This document shows positions 1,859 to 18,504 of a DNA stretch of 35,340 bases, in pieces. The notes under the pieces were generated by a model. That model was not told the DNA's origin, made no database searches, and worked only from the letters and a program-made list of their open reading frames with translations. The translations under genes were made by a program, and so were the position numbers. Positions within the stretch are counted from its first letter, which is position 1, and every line of letters starts with the position of its first letter. The stretch comes from Ignavibacteria bacterium. GTDB lineage: Bacteria; Bacteroidota; Ignavibacteria; UBA10030. The stretch is taken from the NCBI GenBank assembly GCA_016873755.1, contig VGWB01000012.1, positions 1 through 35,340 on the forward strand, given 5' to 3'.

Positions 1859-2695
1859 CTACATTTTCTTCCCGACCATGGTGGCACTCCATTGGAGAGT
1901 ACTCCCGCCGGATTCGTACGTCCCTTTCATAGTATTTCCGCTGACGCGGCCAGTGTATTTGACATTTCCGATAGTGAAGGTAGCCAGATCACCGTTCAGC
2001 TTCCCATCTGTCACAGAGACTGATTTGGAGCCGGATTTGAGCGCTCCCGAAAAAGTCTGGAAGTGCTGTTCGAGCGTGAGTTCGCCTTGTGGAAATTTCC
2101 AGGTGCCTTCCACTTTTGCCGGTGCAATCCACAAATAAGCCTTGGAATAGGAGCTACAGTCGCTGTCTTCGACAGTGGCGACTTGATCGGCTGTCCATTC
2201 TCCCATTGTAAATGTATTCGAGACGACACGAGTACCGGGTTTCAAGTTGAGAATCTGCGGGCGAAGCTGGAGATTAAGGCTCTCCAACAGAAACATGGTA
2301 ATGACGGTAGCCTGCGAGAAATCGGTCTCAAATATGTCTCCTTGAATGAACTGGGCCTTACCGGCAACACCTTCTCTAGCCGCATTGCGCATCGATAAGG
2401 CAACCATGTCAGGATTGTATTCGATGCCCATGGACCGGGCGCCGCGCTTTGCTGCCGTGATGACAAGACAGCCGTCCCCAGAACCCAGGTCTACCACGAA
2501 GTCTTGTGGCGTAACCTTCGCCACATGGAGCATTTTGTCCACTAATTCCTGGCAAGTAGGCACCCATGCCACGTCCTTGCCGTCCTGCCCGACTTCAGGT
2601 GTGTACTCGCTCGAAACCGATATCCTCGCGCAGGCGACGATGAGGGACAGACAGAGCATCAACAATGACTGACGTACAAAACGAGATGTGATCAT
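1859..2695 (-). CDS. Predicted lipoprotein with class I SAM-methyltransferase fold and C-terminal beta-rich domain
   Basis: I chose the ATG at 2695 (278 residues) because it puts a hydrophobic signal peptide at the extreme N-terminus, ending in IVAC, which fits a lipobox. The open frame continues upstream to an ATG at 2803, which would add 36 polar residues. The next segment carries the class I methyltransferase motif I, VVDLGSGDG, then an acidic residue in GIEYNPDM as expected for the ribose-binding motif II. The last 80 or so residues are rich in Gly, Ser and Thr and look like a small beta domain. The substrate is unknown. A methyltransferase fold behind a secretion signal is odd because S-adenosylmethionine is not expected outside the cytoplasm. 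The fold call is firm; export and activity are inference. Confidence 0.8.
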   Translation of the reverse strand: MITSRFVRQSLLMLCLSLIVACARISVSSEYTPEVGQDGKDVAWVPTCQELVDKMLHVAKVTPQDFVVDLGSGDGCLVITAAKRGARSMGIEYNPDMVALSMRNAAREGVAGKAQFIQGDIFETDFSQATVITMFLLESLNLQLRPQILNLKPGTRVVSNTFTMGEWTADQVATVEDSDCSSYSKAYLWIAPAKVEGTWKFPQGELTLEQHFQTFSGALKSGSKSVSVTDGKLNGDLATFTIGNVKYTGRVSGNTMKGTYESGGSTLQWSATMVGKKM

Positions 2696-2864
2696 CCTTC
2701 TGCTCGAATCACAATTCCATACTAAGGACCGCCTGACTCTCTGTGTCTTGTGTAGTTGAGATTCAAAAATCTCTTTGATGATGTTAGTGTCTCTCGTAGT
2801 CATTCAGTCAGAAATGGTGTGCTTTCGCAGGTATGCCAAAAAGTAGAGACTTGAGGAGCAAGAA

Positions 2865-4121
2865 TCAAGGAACACCGATTCTGAGCAATTTCCTTCGTAC
2901 GAGCTCCAGGGCGGCCTGCGCTGCACGCTCCTTCACCCTCCGGCGATCATCGCCGAAATTGAACTTCAACGCAAGGGTCTCCGAACGGTCGGAGTAGCCG
3001 ATCCAAACCAGCCCCACAGGCTTCTCCGCTGTGGCTCCTGTCGGTCCGGCGATGCCTGTCGTCGATATTCCGATATCCGTGTTCGCCTTCACTCTGATTC
3101 CGAAAGCCATCGCCTCGGCTACCTCGCGGCTCACCGCGCCATGCTGCCGAATCAGTACTTCTGGTACACCCAGCTCGGCCATCTTCGAAGCATTGCTGTA
3201 GGTAATAGCGCCTCGCTCGAAGTAGTTTGAGCTCCCCGAGACGTTCGTGAGCCTATCCGTGATGAGACCGCCAGTGCAGGATTCGGCAACAGCGAGGGCC
3301 AGTCTGCGCTCGGTCAGCAACCTGCCAACGATGTGCTCAAGCTCATCCTCGTTCGTTCCGTAGATGTACTTGCCGGCCTTTGCACGGATTTTTTCTTCGA
3401 CGATACGGATCGTTTCATTCACCTCGGCAATGCTTTTCCCCCTGGCTGTGATTCGAAGTCGCGTCCCAATTGGGCTTGGGAGGAAGGCCAGGCTCACTCC
3501 GGAATTCGGAGCGAAGAGACCGTTCACATTTCCAATCTGTTCTGCAAGAAACGATTCTCCAATACCGGTGGTCTTCAGCATGTGATGCCGAATAACCAGC
3601 CCTGAGGCTCTTTCGGCAAAGAAAGGAACGACAAAGTCCTGAATCATGGCCTTCATCTCAAACGGTACGCCGGGCATGACGATGAAGTACTTCCCCCCTC
3701 GTTCGAACAGATAGCCTGGTGCCGTACCGTTGAGATTCTGAATGACCTTACAGCCCCGCGGCACCAGTGCTTGGTCCTCGTTGATCTTCCGGGGGGCTAC
3801 CCCGCGCTTCCGAAAGATCTCACGCACTCGCTGCAGCGCCTCCTCATTCACGACCAGATCTGTCTGAAAGAACTCACAAACGACGTTCCTGGTGATGTCG
3901 TCATGCGTTGGGCCCAGGCCTCCGGTCACGACCACAACATCGTTACTGCCCAAAGCACTCTCAAAGGATCTCAGGATATCCGACCTGTCGTCCCCGACCG
4001 TTGTCATTCTTGCGACTGTGACGCCAACGGAGCTCAGTCGCTCGCCGATGTATGCCTGGTTGGAGTTGATGACCTGGCCGATCAGCAGTTCATCACCAAC
4101 TGAAATGACTTCCGCTCTCAT
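2865..4121 (-). CDS. cinA: CinA family protein: N-terminal molybdopterin-binding-like domain plus nicotinamide-nucleotide amidase
   Basis: This is a full-length two-domain CinA of 418 residues. The N-terminal domain begins with VISVGDELLIGQ and contains GGLGPTHDD near residues 67-75, as in the MoaB/MogA-like COG1058 domain associated with ADP-ribose pyrophosphatase activity. The C-terminal domain has ESCTGG at about 280-285 and TTGIAGPTG further on, the signature of the PncC amidase that deamidates NMN to nicotinic acid mononucleotide. The protein therefore belongs to pyridine nucleotide recycling. Older competence-related names come from its co-occurrence with recA, which is also seen here. 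It lies 27 bases after pgpA on the same strand. Confidence 0.95.
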   Translation of the reverse strand: MRAEVISVGDELLIGQVINSNQAYIGERLSSVGVTVARMTTVGDDRSDILRSFESALGSNDVVVVTGGLGPTHDDITRNVVCEFFQTDLVVNEEALQRVREIFRKRGVAPRKINEDQALVPRGCKVIQNLNGTAPGYLFERGGKYFIVMPGVPFEMKAMIQDFVVPFFAERASGLVIRHHMLKTTGIGESFLAEQIGNVNGLFAPNSGVSLAFLPSPIGTRLRITARGKSIAEVNETIRIVEEKIRAKAGKYIYGTNEDELEHIVGRLLTERRLALAVAESCTGGLITDRLTNVSGSSNYFERGAITYSNASKMAELGVPEVLIRQHGAVSREVAEAMAFGIRVKANTDIGISTTGIAGPTGATAEKPVGLVWIGYSDRSETLALKFNFGDDRRRVKERAAQAALELVRRKLLRIGVP

Positions 4122-12930: not shown

Positions 12931-13401
12931 ATGCTTTCTGAACGCAATCTGAAAAAGCTCGACGAGATGAAGAAGTACTACCAGACTTCTCAATCTCTGG
13001 TCCTGCCGGCGCTCTGGATGGTGCAGGAGGAGCATGGTCACATCTCTGAAGATGCGATGAAGTACGTTGCAAAGCTCCTCGGTGTTCCCTTCGGGCACAT
13101 ACTGGGAGTAGTGACGTTCTACACGATGCTGCACCGCAAGCCGATCGGCAGACACCACGTAGAGGTCTGCACGAATGTCTCCTGCATGCTTCGTGGGGCT
13201 GACAAGATTGTGGAACATCTCGAGAAGCGGCTCGGTATCAAGATGGGGGAGACGTCGAGGGATCGCAAATGGACGCTCTCCGAGGTCGAGTGCATGGGCT
13301 CCTGTGGTACGGCGCCGATGTTTGCCGTTGGCGAGGAGTACTACGAGAATCTGACACCCGAGAAGATTGACAAGCTCATAGCGGATCTGGAGCGGAAATA
13401 G
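12931..13401 (+). CDS. nuoE: NADH-quinone oxidoreductase subunit E
   Basis: NuoE (24-kDa subunit) carries the [2Fe-2S] cluster N1a next to the NADH-oxidising NuoF. The thioredoxin-like 156-residue protein has the four ligands as C80 and C85 in VCTNVSC and C121 and C125 in ECMGSCG. The N-terminal helical part contains ALWMVQEEHGHIS. It starts at the ATG at 12931, and its TAG shares one base with the GTG of nuoF. Confidence 0.96.
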   Translation: MLSERNLKKLDEMKKYYQTSQSLVLPALWMVQEEHGHISEDAMKYVAKLLGVPFGHILGVVTFYTMLHRKPIGRHHVEVCTNVSCMLRGADKIVEHLEKRLGIKMGETSRDRKWTLSEVECMGSCGTAPMFAVGEEYYENLTPEKIDKLIADLERK

Positions 13402-14678
13402 TGAATATGGAAAAGTACCTACTCCCTGATATACGAGACCTCCACAGAATCGATGTGTACGAAGCCCATGGAGGCTACAAGGCCTTCCGAAAGGCGCTCC
13501 AGATGAAGACGGAGGATGTGACGGAGGAGGTCAAGAAATCAGGGCTGAAGGGACGGGGCGGTGCATGTTTCCCGACCGGTCTCAAATGGACGTTTATGCC
13601 GAAGCAGTCGGACAAGCCGAAGTACCTCTGCGTCAACGGCGATGAATCTGAGCCCGGCACGTTCAAAGACCGTCAAATCTTTGAGTTCAACCCTCATCTC
13701 ATGATTGAGGGAACGCTTATCGCAGCATACGCAATGGGGGGGTCGATCTCGTACATCTATGTTCGGGGTGAGTACGGGAAATGGATCAAGATGATCGAGA
13801 AGGCGCTGCATGATGCGTACGCGAAGGGGTATATCGGACAGAATATCCTTGGTTCCGGATTCTCGACCGAGATCATTGTCCACAGAGGTGCAGGCGCTTA
13901 TATATGCGGCGAGGAGTCTGCGCTGATGAACTCGATCGAAGGCGATCGGGGGTACCCGCGCGTGAAGCCGCCATTCCCGGCGCAGAACGGCCTGTGGGGC
14001 CGCGCGACCACGATCAACAACGTTGAGACTATCAGCAATGTCCCTCTGATTATCGATCGCGGCTGGGAATGGTATTCCAAGATCGGTGCGCCGAAGTATC
14101 CGGGTCCGATTCTCGTGGGTGTGAGCGGACACGTCAACAAACCGGGAGTGTACGAGCTGCCGACAGGTGTACCCTTGCTCGAGATTATCCACAAATATGC
14201 CGGAGGTGTCCCGGGCAACAAGGCGATCAAGGCAGTCTTTCCTGGCGGGTCGTCGACCATGGTTCTGCGCGGTGACCAGCTGGAGGGCGTCTGCATGGAT
14301 GCTGAGTCACTCAAGGCAGCGGGATCGTCTGTTGGGACCGCCGGATTGATCGTGATGGATGAGGATACCGATCTCATCAAGGTTATTGCGCGGATTGCCA
14401 AATTCTATTACCACGAATCATGCGGCCAATGTACTCCATGCCGGGAGGGTACGGGCTGGCTCTGGAAGATACTTAACCGCTTCGAGAACGGTGAAGGGCG
14501 TTGGGAGGATATCGACCTACTGCTGGACGTTGCCAACAACGTTGAGGGGAACACGATTTGTGCCCTCGGCGACGCAGCGGCGTGGCCGGTCCAGTCGATG
14601 GTACGGCGATTCCGGGATGAGTTCGAGAGGCGTGCAAAAATACCACGGCCAAAGGTTCTTGAAGCTGTTGCTGTGTAG
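13401..14678 (+). CDS. nuoF: NADH-quinone oxidoreductase subunit F
   Basis: NuoF (51-kDa subunit) oxidises NADH with FMN and passes electrons to a [4Fe-4S] cluster. The 425-residue protein has the NADH/FMN glycine-rich segment GLKGRGGACFPTG, the GEESALMNSIEG segment and the cluster motif ESCGQCTPCREG with a fourth cysteine in NTICALGDA. I prefer the GTG at 13401, eight bases after a GGAG, over the ATG at 13407. The operon stops here: nuoG and the membrane subunits H to N do not follow, and I see no clear terminator after the stop. Confidence 0.96.
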   Translation: MNMEKYLLPDIRDLHRIDVYEAHGGYKAFRKALQMKTEDVTEEVKKSGLKGRGGACFPTGLKWTFMPKQSDKPKYLCVNGDESEPGTFKDRQIFEFNPHLMIEGTLIAAYAMGGSISYIYVRGEYGKWIKMIEKALHDAYAKGYIGQNILGSGFSTEIIVHRGAGAYICGEESALMNSIEGDRGYPRVKPPFPAQNGLWGRATTINNVETISNVPLIIDRGWEWYSKIGAPKYPGPILVGVSGHVNKPGVYELPTGVPLLEIIHKYAGGVPGNKAIKAVFPGGSSTMVLRGDQLEGVCMDAESLKAAGSSVGTAGLIVMDEDTDLIKVIARIAKFYYHESCGQCTPCREGTGWLWKILNRFENGEGRWEDIDLLLDVANNVEGNTICALGDAAAWPVQSMVRRFRDEFERRAKIPRPKVLEAVAV

Positions 14679-15088
14679 CATTGTGATGGCTCCTTCTTAG
14701 CGGCTCGCATCGGTGAAGATACCGCTTGGAGGGCGGTTACCCCCTTAGGAGACATTACCAGAGAAGTAAGCAAGTCGTCGTCCCGGTATTCTCATTGTCT
14801 TACGGCCAGCCAAAGAAATGCCCTGTCTCCGGTATTGCGCCTTCCCACGTAACCGCATGCATTCCATCCAGCGTCTGAGGCATCAATAAAGCGTACTTCT
14901 TGTTCTCGTGTTGGCGGAAATTCCCGATTTCCCGCGTCGACGAATCTGCGTGGAGAAGTAATCCATGTTAGAACGAATTTATATTCGCAACACGCAGGCA
15001 TAGATTTCCGCCGCAGAGAGTGAAAGCCGTCGACGTTTTGGCGCGACTAAGGATCAGACTAGGTTCGCACGCATAGAAAGGAGAGGCT
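14679..15088. other. Gene-poor stretch with a possible minus-strand gene remnant
   Basis: These 410 bases follow nuoF. The only notable content is a minus-strand frame from 15001 to 14792 (69 codons). It ends with a protein-like stretch reading EVRFIDASDAGWNACGYVG and then GDRAFLWLAVRQ. The GW...GY...RAFLW pattern recalls C-terminal beta repeats of extracellular proteins, so it may be the last piece of a decayed gene. I cannot assign it to a family and it may be chance. TATATT at 14980-14985 has no matching -35 box. No RNA gene or strong terminator is visible. Confidence 0.4.
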
Positions 15089-16006
15089 ATGGTCATTCCC
15101 TATCTTGCTCTGATTAGTTCGGGCTTGGGGATGGGGTTAGTTGCCCTGTCTTCGGTATTTCAAGACTCACTTAATCGACGTATCTCCGAAGGTAGCATAC
15201 GGGGAGGGTATTTCCTTCTCTTGGCGGGCGTGGTGCTTGGCGCACTGTCGATGGAGGATCCGTTGGGTGCGTGGGCACTGGGTTTATCCGCGGCTTCCGG
15301 AGGAATCTGTGGAACGGGTTACCTGTTTTACAGAAATCATAGACGGACCCATTACAAAGTGAGCGGCGGCGATTTTGAGATTCTGCCTCGTAGAGAAGGA
15401 GAAGAAGGCGAAGGAGCCCCGTCTGGATTAGAAAGTAAGAACCCCACACCTCCACCGGGTCCCACAAAGGTCCCTGAGCGCCCGAGTGCTTCTCGGCCCA
15501 AAGAAACTTACACCTGCAGCTTGACTCACTTATCGGGCTGGACCTTTCTACATATGTTGCTCAAAGGTGGAGACTGGCGCAAGGTCTTTAACACTGAGTT
15601 TATGCTATATGTGCGGGGTAGTCGTATGGATTTTTATCTGGACGGCAGAGGATCTGCCTTCTGGGGTCTTCTTTGGAGAGATTACCGAGTCAGAATTCGG
15701 CATGACGAATTGTACAAGAATATCAAATGCATTGACCAGTGCACCAAAATTCTGGTCGATTCTTGGGGCACCCCCCAGCGTCGTGACAGACTTTTGGTCG
15801 CCGGCTATTCATTTGAAATTAGCTACCTGGACAGCATGGATACGGTTTACGTGAGCGCCGAGATTGCGTCGGGCATGGATGGGATTCTATCACTGAGCTC
15901 AAATATATCAGGGGCGCCTTCGGTCAGCGCCACTGAAACGCCCACGGAGCTGAGATCAGGTACAGGCAGCAATGCCTTCAAATGCGTGAAGGTAAGAAGT
16001 AGTTGA
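15089..16006 (+). CDS. Unrecognised membrane-anchored protein with proline-rich linker
   Basis: I do not recognise this 305-residue protein. It starts at the ATG at 15089 behind a good ribosome site, AAAGGAGAGG. Three hydrophobic segments at about residues 3-23, 39-55 and 60-82 are followed by a basic stretch (RNHRRTHYK). A charged and proline-rich linker then runs from about 99 to 139, with PTPPPGP and an acidic EGEEGEGE-like run. The C-terminal region, about 140-275, mixes aromatic and basic residues (WTFLHMLLKGGDWRKVF, FWGLLWRDYRVRIRH) and looks like a folded cytosolic domain. The last 30 residues are Ser/Thr-rich. It sits alone between the truncated nuo block and a sigma factor, with possible gene fragments on both sides, so it is probably accessory. 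Confidence 0.75.
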   Translation: MVIPYLALISSGLGMGLVALSSVFQDSLNRRISEGSIRGGYFLLLAGVVLGALSMEDPLGAWALGLSAASGGICGTGYLFYRNHRRTHYKVSGGDFEILPRREGEEGEGAPSGLESKNPTPPPGPTKVPERPSASRPKETYTCSLTHLSGWTFLHMLLKGGDWRKVFNTEFMLYVRGSRMDFYLDGRGSAFWGLLWRDYRVRIRHDELYKNIKCIDQCTKILVDSWGTPQRRDRLLVAGYSFEISYLDSMDTVYVSAEIASGMDGILSLSSNISGAPSVSATETPTELRSGTGSNAFKCVKVRSS

Positions 16007-16070
16007 TCAATTCCGATGCGATATCCTTCGCCTCGATGCCGAGGCCTGCGTTCCGGACGTTAAGACTCTG

Positions 16071-16235
16071 ATGCCTGACAAGGCGCTCCACCTGACCGCT
16101 ATTCCGCTGGGTCTCGGAGCGCCAGACGAGCTTAGCCGTTCCCGACGCGAGTTTTTGCGTTTTTCGGAAGCCTTACTCAATCTTGCATATCTCCCCTGGG
16201 ATGAAACATCTACATCGATGCTCCTGTATATTTAG
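16071..16235 (+). other. Possible gene fragment upstream of the sigma factor
   Basis: The frame is open from 15996 to the TAG at 16233-16235, with its only early ATG at 16071 (54 codons). The translation, with LHLTAIPLGLGAPDELSRS and LLNLAYLPWDETSTS, looks protein-like but matches nothing I know and has no ribosome site. It lies in the 265-base space between the unknown membrane protein and the sigma factor. It may be a remnant of another gene or chance. Confidence 0.25.
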
Positions 16236-16271: not shown

Positions 16272-16979
16272 ATGAAAGCCGCTTCAACCGTCTATAAGAA
16301 TGAATCGGGACAAACATCGAAGCTGATTGCCGGCTCGCCAGACTCAACCGCCCAAGTCGTTCGGGAAGGCCGCAGTCGGGCTGGCAAGTTGCTGACACAG
16401 GTTGTGGACGCCCCTCTGAACGAAAAGAGTGACGAGGTTCTCATAACGATGTTCCAGCAAGGGGAGCGCGGGGTGTTCCGTGTGCTGGTGGAGCGGTATC
16501 AGGCGCGCATCAAGAATCTCATCTACTCGATCTTCCATGAACCTGATGTCATCGACGATCTCGCCCAGGAAGTATTCATCAAGGCGTGCGAGGCGCTTCC
16601 ACAATTTCGATTTCAGTCGTCCTTCTACACCTGGCTGTACCGAATTGCTGTGAACAGGAGCCGGGATGAATTACGCAAACGAAAGCTCCGGAGATTGTTT
16701 TCGCTCCAGACATTGGTGGATTCAGCAGATCGCGAGGTTACGGCGAAGCTCACGGTTCAGCCAAAGGAGAGCGAGGTGCAGGAGATCGTCGCTTCGGCCC
16801 TGAAATCGTTGCCGGAGCGTTATCGTATGGTGATTATTCTGAAGGACATCGATGGGCTTTCGTACGAAGAGATCTCAGAGGTGTTGCAGTGCGAGCTCGG
16901 CACGGTGAAGTCGCGACTCTTTCGGGCGCGTGCCATGCTGAGGAGTGTGTTGAAGCCTTTGCTGGAGGAGCATTCGTAG
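16272..16979 (+). CDS. ECF-family RNA polymerase sigma factor (RpoE-like)
   Basis: The 235-residue protein has the two ECF domains. Region 2 spans about residues 68-137 with DVIDDLAQEVFIKACEALPQF and FYTWLYRIAVNRSRDELRKRK. Region 4 spans about 172-231 with LPERYRMVIILKDIDGLSYEEI and a helix-turn-helix ending GTVKSRLFRARAML. About 55 extra polar residues precede region 2. The start is supported by AGGAG upstream of the ATG. The gene is followed after one base by a membrane anti-sigma factor, the usual layout for an envelope-stress system. TGAAAC at 16202 and TATATT at 16227 might form an autoregulated ECF promoter, but this is weak. Confidence 0.93.
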   Translation: MKAASTVYKNESGQTSKLIAGSPDSTAQVVREGRSRAGKLLTQVVDAPLNEKSDEVLITMFQQGERGVFRVLVERYQARIKNLIYSIFHEPDVIDDLAQEVFIKACEALPQFRFQSSFYTWLYRIAVNRSRDELRKRKLRRLFSLQTLVDSADREVTAKLTVQPKESEVQEIVASALKSLPERYRMVIILKDIDGLSYEEISEVLQCELGTVKSRLFRARAMLRSVLKPLLEEHS

Positions 16980-16980
16980 C

Positions 16981-18504
16981 ATGAAACCACGATCAAAACG
17001 AGAGCTATCGGAGAAGCTCTCCCTCTATATCGATGGGGAGTTGCCGGAGTCGGAAGTGAGAGAGATCGAGGAGGTCATTGCAGGCAACCCGGAGGCAGCG
17101 AAGGAGCTTCGGGAACTGCGAGCGATGAAGAGCCTGCTCGAATCGAAGCAACGCGCTCCGGAAACGCTCGGTTTCTGGACACGTCTCTCTGCGCAGTTGC
17201 AGGTCAAGGAGAAAGAGGAAGAAAGCCTGCTGCCATTTCCGCGGAGGTATCTGCCGCTTGTGTACGTAACGGGTGCTGCGGCTGTCGTGTTGGTGGGTTT
17301 GCTGCTGTTCCAGCAGCGAACGGATATGATTGACTATGTCAGCCGCCAGTCGGAGATGGTTCAAAAGGCTGTGGAGGATAATGTTCTGAAGGGGACGCTC
17401 CTGCCTCTCTTCACCGATGTTGACAAGAACCAGGCGCTTCAATTTGCCCTGTTTGGGGCTCTTCCTCTCGATGCTAAGAGCGAAACGGCTTTGCGCGTTG
17501 ACGATAGTGCGGAGCGCGGATACCGTATCGACGTCGGGAAAAAGGCGATTGAGCAAATTCCGAGGATAACGGTCGGCGAATTTGTCAGTGAGGTCAAGCC
17601 GACACGCAGACAGCAAGAGGTCATCGATTCGGTTTTGGATATCGGTCGTCTGCGTCTTGAATCGTCTGTCTTGCTCGCCGAAGACCGCGCGCTTGCGATC
17701 GACGAGAACCTCCCGCGCCTCAATCGGGTGATGCTCTCAGGGATCGCCGCGGTCCTGGAACCGACTCAGCGCGTTCGCTTCGAGAGGTTCTTGAAGGCTA
17801 AAAAGGCCCCCTTCATGGTTGCAGCGACGGAAGCCCTTCCGGAGCCTCCCGAGAAGATTATCCACGAAATTCGAACCATACAGCGCCCAGAGCGCATGAT
17901 CGTGGTCACCCCGGATACGTTTGTCTATTCGAGACTGGAGCTCGACCTCGACAGCTTGCGGCGCCAGTTTCGCGCCGTCGTTGCGATGCGGCCTCAGGTC
18001 ACGATTCACTTTGGCGGGCTGGTCAAACGGTTTGCCGAGCGCGAAGCTACTGCACGTCGGCATATCAGCATCGAGACGCCTCCGCTCACGGTGATGAGCG
18101 ATTCGGATGCATTCACGATTCACATTCGCACCCAGGAGGGAGAAGTCGTGCAATTCGCTCGCAACGAGTGGATTCGACGGCGTGTTCCGATAACTGTTCC
18201 GGTAGCCCGACGCGGCCGTGATCAGATCGTCGATTTCAACTTCAACATCTTTGGAGATGATACCTCGTTTGAGTTCAACGTCAACCTCGATAGCCTGGTT
18301 CTACGCATGCGGAAGGATGGACCTGAGGCGGCATTTGAATTCTTCATGCGGGACATGGATCACGAGCAACGATACGCCGACTCGCAACGAGGTCGAGCTC
18401 GGGTCCCAACGGATAGCGTGATGAAAGCGAAGGAACGAGCGCGTGCGCGGCTCGATTCGTTGATCAGAGTCATGCAGGAAAGGGAACTGAGAGAACGCAG
18501 GTAG
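16981..18504 (+). CDS. Membrane anti-sigma factor with periplasmic Spy/CpxP-like segment
   Basis: The 507-residue product begins with a short anti-sigma domain (residues 1-60, LSLYIDGELPESEVREIEE) that lacks the zinc-binding HxxxCxxC. One membrane helix follows at about 90-110 (LPLVYVTGAAAVVLVGLLLF), leaving about 395 residues in the periplasm. Residues 201-275 contain two helices beginning VKPTRRQQEVIDSVL and VLEPTQRVRFERFL. They resemble the paired LTxxQ motifs of Spy, CpxP and heavy-metal-sensor proteins. The remainder is beta-rich with a charged C-terminal helix (MKAKERARARLDSLIRVMQ). It sits one base after the ECF sigma gene and ends before a strong terminator. It probably holds the sigma factor at the membrane until an envelope signal appears; the signal is unknown. 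Confidence 0.8.
   Translation: MKPRSKRELSEKLSLYIDGELPESEVREIEEVIAGNPEAAKELRELRAMKSLLESKQRAPETLGFWTRLSAQLQVKEKEEESLLPFPRRYLPLVYVTGAAAVVLVGLLLFQQRTDMIDYVSRQSEMVQKAVEDNVLKGTLLPLFTDVDKNQALQFALFGALPLDAKSETALRVDDSAERGYRIDVGKKAIEQIPRITVGEFVSEVKPTRRQQEVIDSVLDIGRLRLESSVLLAEDRALAIDENLPRLNRVMLSGIAAVLEPTQRVRFERFLKAKKAPFMVAATEALPEPPEKIIHEIRTIQRPERMIVVTPDTFVYSRLELDLDSLRRQFRAVVAMRPQVTIHFGGLVKRFAEREATARRHISIETPPLTVMSDSDAFTIHIRTQEGEVVQFARNEWIRRRVPITVPVARRGRDQIVDFNFNIFGDDTSFEFNVNLDSLVLRMRKDGPEAAFEFFMRDMDHEQRYADSQRGRARVPTDSVMKAKERARARLDSLIRVMQERELRERR

Follow-up and report, generated by a model that had tools for sequence, protein, structure and literature searches.

A probable lone integron gene cassette in the nuoF terminator of an uncultured Ignavibacteria bacterium

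Introduction

Orphan genes are found beside housekeeping operons, and it has to be asked where they come from and how they reached their present position. This question is raised by a locus of an uncultured Ignavibacteria bacterium (assembly GCA_016873755.1, 376 contigs, 97% complete), in which an orphan ORF is located between nuoF and an ECF sigma factor gene. The window, i.e., the whole stretch of DNA that was analyzed, comprises 35,340 nucleotides of contig VGWB01000012.1, and coordinates without a contig name refer to it. A sequence-only reading had described the ORF as a gene for a membrane protein that could not be placed in any family, preceded by a strong ribosome site. It had proposed that the region is an insertion, that the gene is accessory or newly acquired, and that older genes decayed around it. 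The locus contains the following features:

13401-14678, plus strand: nuoF, the last gene of nuoABCDEF and the left host flank (TIGR01959, 605 bits)
15089-16006, plus strand: orphan ORF, 305 amino acids, ATG start, three N-terminal membrane segments followed by a soluble C-terminal part
16202-16230, plus strand: promoter-like element TGAAAC-N17-TGTATA 5' of the sigma factor gene, intact despite the insertion
16272-16979, plus strand: ECF sigma factor gene, the right host flank (TIGR02937, PF04542, PF08281)
16981-18504, plus strand: anti-sigma factor-like gene (PF13490, E 6e-4; NF052375, E 6e-9; both below the cut-off)

Results

The orphan ORF and its predicted product

The ORF was present as described, and the ribosome site AAAGGAGAGGCT, which was judged good, is located 5' of it. 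The three hydrophobic N-terminal segments and a proline/acidic linker were also recovered when the translation was inspected by eye. A single-sequence AlphaFold2 model placed helices at residues 2-33, 38-54, and 58-83 with a mean pLDDT of only 38.7, and modelling of the C-terminal part alone gave a pLDDT of 31.1, so that neither model yielded a usable fold. Judged from the translation, the product most likely resides in the inner membrane, and its C-terminal part is predicted to be cytoplasmic, because positive charges follow segments 1 and 3 (by eye). By inference, its role is most likely accessory and separate from complex I.

In Pfam, NCBIfam, PHROGs, and PADLOC the protein matched no family at E<=1. 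A match to a housekeeping family, which had been named beforehand as evidence against an acquired gene, was thus not found in the family libraries. The search of PDB sequences returned one non-significant match (E 0.73), no relative was found in plasmids and phages, and the same was true for collections of genome contigs and viral contigs, for which a type of search was used that finds close relatives only. Among 61 related genomes 14 had matches at E<=1; the 13 other than the own genome had E values of at least 0.008 over short stretches and were read as noise. Nor was a relative found in any of the 97 further genomes of the order. Among 395 genomes drawn from the phylum there was one match besides the own genome, in G395 (E 1e-4, 39% over 44 residues). 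It covered the proline/acidic linker and contained three internal stops, and was rejected as low complexity.

The composition of the ORF is unusual for the window. Its GC content is 51.5%, the three codon positions are nearly alike (0.52, 0.50, 0.53), and its codon score is the lowest among the 25 window ORFs that were taken as genes; the codon usage and GC comparison that had been proposed thus points to a foreign gene. The score of the orphan frame was not above those of two of its reverse frames. Its three-base periodicity was 11.0, compared to 9.7 in shuffles, and 170 of 500 shuffles were as high, whereas the 24 other ORFs had values of 28-125. When the ORF was divided into thirds, the observed periodicity was reached in 827, 873, and 53 of 1000 shuffles, respectively. 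The value of the last third was 44.9, which is a mere hint of coding because 53 shuffles reached it. The amino acid composition falls between random and the other window genes. A frame of 305 codons was reached in none of 2000 approximate dinucleotide shuffles of the 1425-bp insert described below, the longest frame being 241. The ORF is likely translated, and we think that it is a real, but foreign and weakly adapted gene.

One other window ORF (1859-2803, minus strand) also had a negative codon score (-0.065), the sole one besides the orphan ORF, and it was possibly acquired as well.

The nuoF-sigma factor region in related genomes

Matches to the sigma factor were present in 56 of the 61 related genomes. 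Of its genus, the own genome is the sole member in the sets that were searched. The best 30 places, including the own one, were taken as loci, and the other 29 were examined (L017-L045 from 29 genomes, 26 of them of the same family; the family genomes G012, G014, G019, G022, and G026 are outside this set). In 23 of these 29 loci nuoF is located directly upstream of the sigma factor gene. The contigs of L017 and L025 stop before nuoF could be reached, and L038, L039, L044, and L045, the first three of which are from another family of the order, have no nuoF within about 1.5 kb upstream of the sigma factor gene. The anti-sigma factor-like gene comes after the sigma factor gene also in the loci of relatives.

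The orphan was absent from all 23 readable gaps. In 22 of them, which span 66-541 nt up to the sigma factor match, there is no gene of such size. The remaining gap, L033 of genome G024, has a length of 1337 nt and contains an unrelated ORF of 280 residues, which resembles a metallo-beta-lactamase-fold protein or metallo-hydrolase (by eye) and precedes the terminator. An integron integrase is present in G024, and no attC match at E<=1 was found in the gap.

The closest named records for the sigma factor gene, among the 80 loci kept, were metagenome-assembled genomes of Bacteroidota and Ignavibacteria (L109, L110, L111), while the remaining 77 loci were proteobacterial by their titles, with identities of 36-44%. 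L109 and L111 have the order nuoF-sigma factor gene without the orphan, and their gaps look identical to those of L027 and L040, so that they were not counted as additional ones. In L110 the 4 kb upstream of the sigma factor gene contain no nuo match. An element NNNAAC-N13..20-TGTATA was present 5' of the sigma factor gene in seven of the 23 gaps of relatives (raw count), and the element TGAAAC-N17-TGTATA at 16202-16230 is possibly the sigma factor gene's own promoter.

The synteny of nuoF, which had been suggested as a check, is thus conserved without the orphan, and this is the conserved state of the neighbourhood in the family. The region of the orphan ORF is an insertion, as had been suspected. 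The orphan was not conserved alongside the nuo genes, as an accessory subunit of complex I would be, in the 23 gaps and the 97 other genomes of the order.

The edges of the insertion and the nuoF terminator

The insertion and its edges are described by the following features:

14704-14713, plus strand: 5' arm of the nuoF terminator hairpin, CTCGCATCGG, 25 nt past the nuoF stop, ending at the left junction
14714-16138, plus strand: inserted DNA of 1425 bp, absent from the gaps of relatives, with the attC crossover as its right end
14816-14909, no strand assigned: dispersed REP-like repeat in the 375-nt leader, with copies on the own contigs C57 and C184 and in G009
16073-16144, plus strand: degenerate attC site (match to model R1, 16074-16145)
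16142-16151, plus strand: 3' arm of the nuoF terminator, CCGACGCGAG; relatives show similar 3' arms and T-runs

The T-run TTTTTGCGTTTTT (16152-16164) follows directly after the 3' arm, and the two arms, which are now separated by the insert, pair at nine of ten positions. A hairpin with a T-run that starts 18 to 29 nt past the nuoF stop was found in 14 of the 23 gaps of relatives (raw count; at least eight pairs and at least seven T). When 14714-16138 is deleted and 14713 is joined to 16139, the sequence CTCGCATCGG-TTC-CCGACGCGAG results, i.e., a whole terminator with the loop TTC and with G|TT at its tip. The crossover G|TT (16138|16139) is located three bases 5' of the 3' arm. Removal of the DNA between the junctions thus restored the host sequence (9/10 pairs), as would be expected for an attG-type insertion. 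A 9/10 match to the arm was found in 18 of 10,084 control stretches of 50 nt from both strands of the window, and in 96 of 10,084 when six arm positions were allowed.

The fold of the join had an energy of -18.7 kcal/mol. Joins at 14714, 14715, and 14716 gave -19.5, -20.4 (with another shape), and -19.7 kcal/mol, respectively. Shifting the join rightward by one to three bases thus gives folds of equal or slightly greater stability, so that the position of the left edge is based on the match of the arms and not on the energy. The right edge can be assigned to a single base, and the left edge almost as precisely, to within a few bases. A cassette is expected to start with TT from its attC, but the insert starts with TG (14714-14715).

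As DNA, the insert had no match in plasmids, and its matches in 98 genomes of the order, itself excepted, were only about 24-90 bases long, with at most three candidates scored per genome. A scan for promoters revealed two sigma-70-like sites where 1.2 were expected, and both of them are on the minus strand. In the accompanying scan for terminators there were three terminator-like sites, compared to 1.4 expected, and the split nuoF terminator was not among them.

A degenerate attC-like site at the right end

A covariance model, R1, was built from seven attC-like sites of G463, G131, G197 (two sites), G412, G367, and G079, from which the window was excluded. The sites had been collected by patterns, which detected them in four of 98 genomes of the order (at most two mismatches) and in eight of 395 genomes of the phylum (at most one mismatch), the own genome being counted in both cases. 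ALHLTAIPLR is a peptide known from translated attC sites, and it guided the choice of search patterns only. The shorter sites of G110 and G418 and the longer-type sites of G007 and G008 were left out of R1, and the model later matched the G418 site with 55.4 bits and the G110 site with 32.5 bits.

In the window R1 matched with 46.1 bits (E 5.3e-12), 67 nt 3' of the orphan stop and in the same orientation, and the second-best match had 9.0 bits. When a string of the site family was composed by hand, with window-like letters at the variable places, the window site scored 35/37 against it and the next-best place in the window 22/37. The consensus fold of the site family has AAC/GTT ends, a long L''/L' stem, and two unpaired bases on the 5' side; four stem pairs vary on both sides, and the conservation ends immediately past GTT. 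This corresponds to the layout of attC sites as given in the available text of PMC12901181. The window site has the layout R''-L''...L'-R', with R'' GCCTGAC at 16073-16079, the crossover G|TT at 16138|16139, and unpaired bases at 16088 and 16095 on the 5' side of the stem when it is threaded on the model.

The site is degenerate in several respects. The consensus in the same text is RYYYAAC for R'' and GTTRRRY for R', and neither R'' GCCTGAC nor R' GTTCCCG of the window site fits; of R' only GTT is kept. The R' mismatch is explained, because the bases past G derive from the target, but this does not account for R'', which carries one change. The first 37 bases are identical to the seven model sites at 29-33 positions, and the 3' half is poor, with 16-19 matches in the next 29 bases. 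Seventeen of 22 stem pairs are kept and five are broken, compared to 18-22 kept in the seven model sites. The bottom strand of the window site folds no better than shuffles (z -1.0, 25/200 as good), while the sites of G367 and G463, the other two of the three that were folded, had z values of -3.8 and -2.5. In a free fold of the window site the L''/L' stem with its unpaired bases does not form. Because the bottom strand folds unstably, the site is read as that of a former rather than a working cassette.

The window site is closer to the sites of another family of the phylum and to that of G079, which is from its own order, than to the longer sites of its own family. This likeness hints at transfer, a suggestion to be read with care in view of R1 itself having been built from such sites. 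None of the seven model sites is visibly located in a terminator (by eye). The attC motif had two chance-level matches in plasmids (E 0.7) and none in viral contigs, and the search of Rfam gave only two matches (E 0.98 and 1.7).

The leader and the flanking ORF fragments

The sequence-only reading had taken two short flanking ORFs as remnants of decayed older genes. This was not borne out. The ORF at 16071-16235 (plus strand) is a translation of the attC-like site, the terminator arm, and the region upstream of the sigma factor gene, and the ORF at 14792-15001 (minus strand) overlaps the dispersed repeat 14816-14909. Neither had a Pfam match at E<=1, and for 14792-15001 there was a single weak match to a plasmid (E 0.03).

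The copy of the repeat on C57 is 72% identical and located 269 nt upstream of a Y1-transposase-like gene (Pfam 19.8 bits, cut-off 23); the copies on C184 and in G009 are shorter. The window repeat corresponds to positions 1501-1594 of L195, and it is missing from the nuoF-sigma factor gaps of relatives. A repeat with a Y1-transposase-like gene near one of its copies presumably resembles REP/RAYT elements, although no transposase was seen in the insert itself. A decayed Y1-transposase gene in the leader was considered as a candidate and rejected, as the best match covered seven residues and 12 of 500 shuffles were as good. The 5' leaders of cassettes are usually short according to the available text of PMC4670013. 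The insert may be composite, because its leader has 375 nt and contains a dispersed repeat; alternatively, the repeat may have entered the cassette later.

Integrases and further attC-like sites

In the own genome no IntI exceeded the TIGR02249 cut-off of 265. There were three weak matches, the best with 89 bits, and weak integrase matches of a similar kind were present in 13 of 14 control genomes. The test for a complete integron found no IntI beside the window site. The integrase cut-off was passed in 18 of the 61 genomes searched, in some cases with an internal stop or with the gene in two pieces. In a further search of nine genomes, three have an integrase above the cut-off. In G367 the site and a full IntI (474 bits) share a contig and a strand and are about 1.8 kb apart, and an FkbM-methyltransferase-like gene ends just 5' of the site; in G412 and G463 the integrase is on another contig than the site.

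Besides the window site, the only matches of R1 in the own genome up to E 10, for which 150 of 820 candidates were scored, were two sites on contig C130 (41.4 and 39.1 bits) and one site with 15.8 bits. The location of the two sites is:

C130 (L106), 2005-2074 and 3455-3519, minus strand: two attC-like sites

Each of them abuts the end of a zinc-dehydrogenase (quinone-reductase-like) gene, and no integrase was detected by Pfam among ten ORFs of this 10.7-kb contig. The two sites appear to form a small cassette array, and thus the own genome appears to carry further cassettes.

In G197, contig region L092 (8008-15462, minus strand) has four co-oriented attC-like sites among housekeeping-looking genes. 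The sites follow ordinary-looking genes, one of them dihydrolipoamide-dehydrogenase-like, and an enolase-like gene is located between two sites (by eye). No IntI at E<=1e-60 was found in this genome.

Discussion

The region of the orphan ORF is probably a lone integron gene cassette in the nuoF terminator. In such an event a circular cassette would have been recombined by IntI, through its attC, with a chromosomal target that is not of the classical kind, namely an attG-like G|TT at the looped tip of the nuoF terminator. The outcome would be the order nuoF, 5' arm, leader, orphan gene, attC, 3' arm, sigma factor gene, with the 1425 bp presumably introduced as one cassette in a single step. As the terminator is split, nuo transcripts may enter the cassette by read-through, and the gene would be expressed without an integron promoter. 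Later decay of the attC would make excision unlikely and would probably have fixed the gene in place. The cassette looks stranded, because its site is decayed and the own genome has no integrase above the cut-off.

The junction of attG sites is G|TT. Integron cassettes were described to enter chromosomes at such sites (Loot et al. 2024, as cited in the available text of PMC12444791 and PMC12901181). The present case is similar in that a single cassette is located outside of an integron, with its attC 3' of the gene and a G|TT junction in an ordinary chromosome. It differs in that the event is natural and looks old, in that it took place in an uncultured member of the Bacteroidota/Chlorobiota group, and in the terminator loop, the decayed attC, and the lack of a detected IntI. 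In the available text on IntegronFinder 2.0 (PMC9024848) single attC sites are stated to be potential true positives. CALIN and single-attC elements share with the window an attC without a neighbouring integrase, but the one site of the window is below the default threshold of two; this comparison is by their description in that text. Integrons in Chlorobi and Ignavibacteriae are reported there as well. These chromosomal integrons are from the same wider group, and the attC family of the window is common to the IntI-bearing G367, but the window copy is outside of any array. Taxon-specific attC models for 11 taxa have been described, with attC sites clustering by environment rather than phylogeny, and Chlorobi or Bacteroidetes are not mentioned in the available text (PMC8352920). 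A literature search in titles and abstract openings revealed nothing on cassettes in terminator loops.

Several other explanations have to be weighed against a lone cassette. That the insert is composite, i.e., that at least two events took place and that the junction separately received the repeat or some other DNA, from 14714 to about 14966, and a cassette of about 14967-16138 that starts with GTTAGAA, appears possible, but not probable. It would account for the copies of the repeat elsewhere in the own genome, the missing TT at the left junction, and a leader that is long for a cassette, and GTTAGAA at 14967 resembles the core GTTRRRY, though only poorly matching partners were found. However, exact removal of 14714-16138 restores the terminator, which fits one event, and a later entry of the repeat into the cassette would fit equally. 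The ORF might also be no protein gene, but non-coding or decayed cassette DNA with an accidental or newly arisen frame. This would not conflict with reading the insert as a cassette, and we regard it as unlikely, yet worth consideration: the periodicity is at the level of shuffles except for the hint in the last third, the amino acid composition is intermediate, two reverse frames score as well, and none of the searches found a homologue. The length of the frame, the ribosome site, the three membrane segments, and the correct position and orientation relative to the attC argue for a gene.

Arrival by illegitimate recombination or with a transposon, the attC-like sequence being pre-existing or having arrived alone, is improbable. 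Such a route is suggested by G197, in which attC-like sites follow ordinary-looking genes in a genome without a detected IntI, and by G024, which holds an unrelated ORF at the same junction without an attC match. Against it, the attC crossover falls on the very edge of the insert, and Pfam revealed no transposase in the orphan or in the two ORF fragments. Very improbable is an ancestral gene of the family that was lost from the relatives, for which the presence in one lineage is the only point. The orphan splits a terminator that is whole in 14 of the 23 readable gaps, its composition is foreign as judged from the lowest codon score of 25 ORFs, and no relative was found in the 97 other genomes of the order or, apart from the low-complexity match, in the 395 genomes drawn from the phylum.

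If the insertion is indeed a lone cassette, sequence alone reveals in this case that a cassette was captured outside of an integron in an uncultured lineage, and the claim that the gene is accessory and newly acquired agrees with its absence from relatives and with the attC-like site that ends the insert. It is a rather doubtful extension, based on the one case presented here, that IntI uses G|TT at the tips of terminator hairpins as a chromosomal target. If this were true, each insertion would split a terminator, transcripts of the upstream operon would read through into the cassette, and a preference for terminator loops would be a simple account of how stray cassettes become expressed. Cases of this kind would explain how housekeeping operons come to have unrelated orphan genes as neighbours, and many genes that now appear to be isolated could be sorted by searching for attC-like ends beside orphan ORFs.
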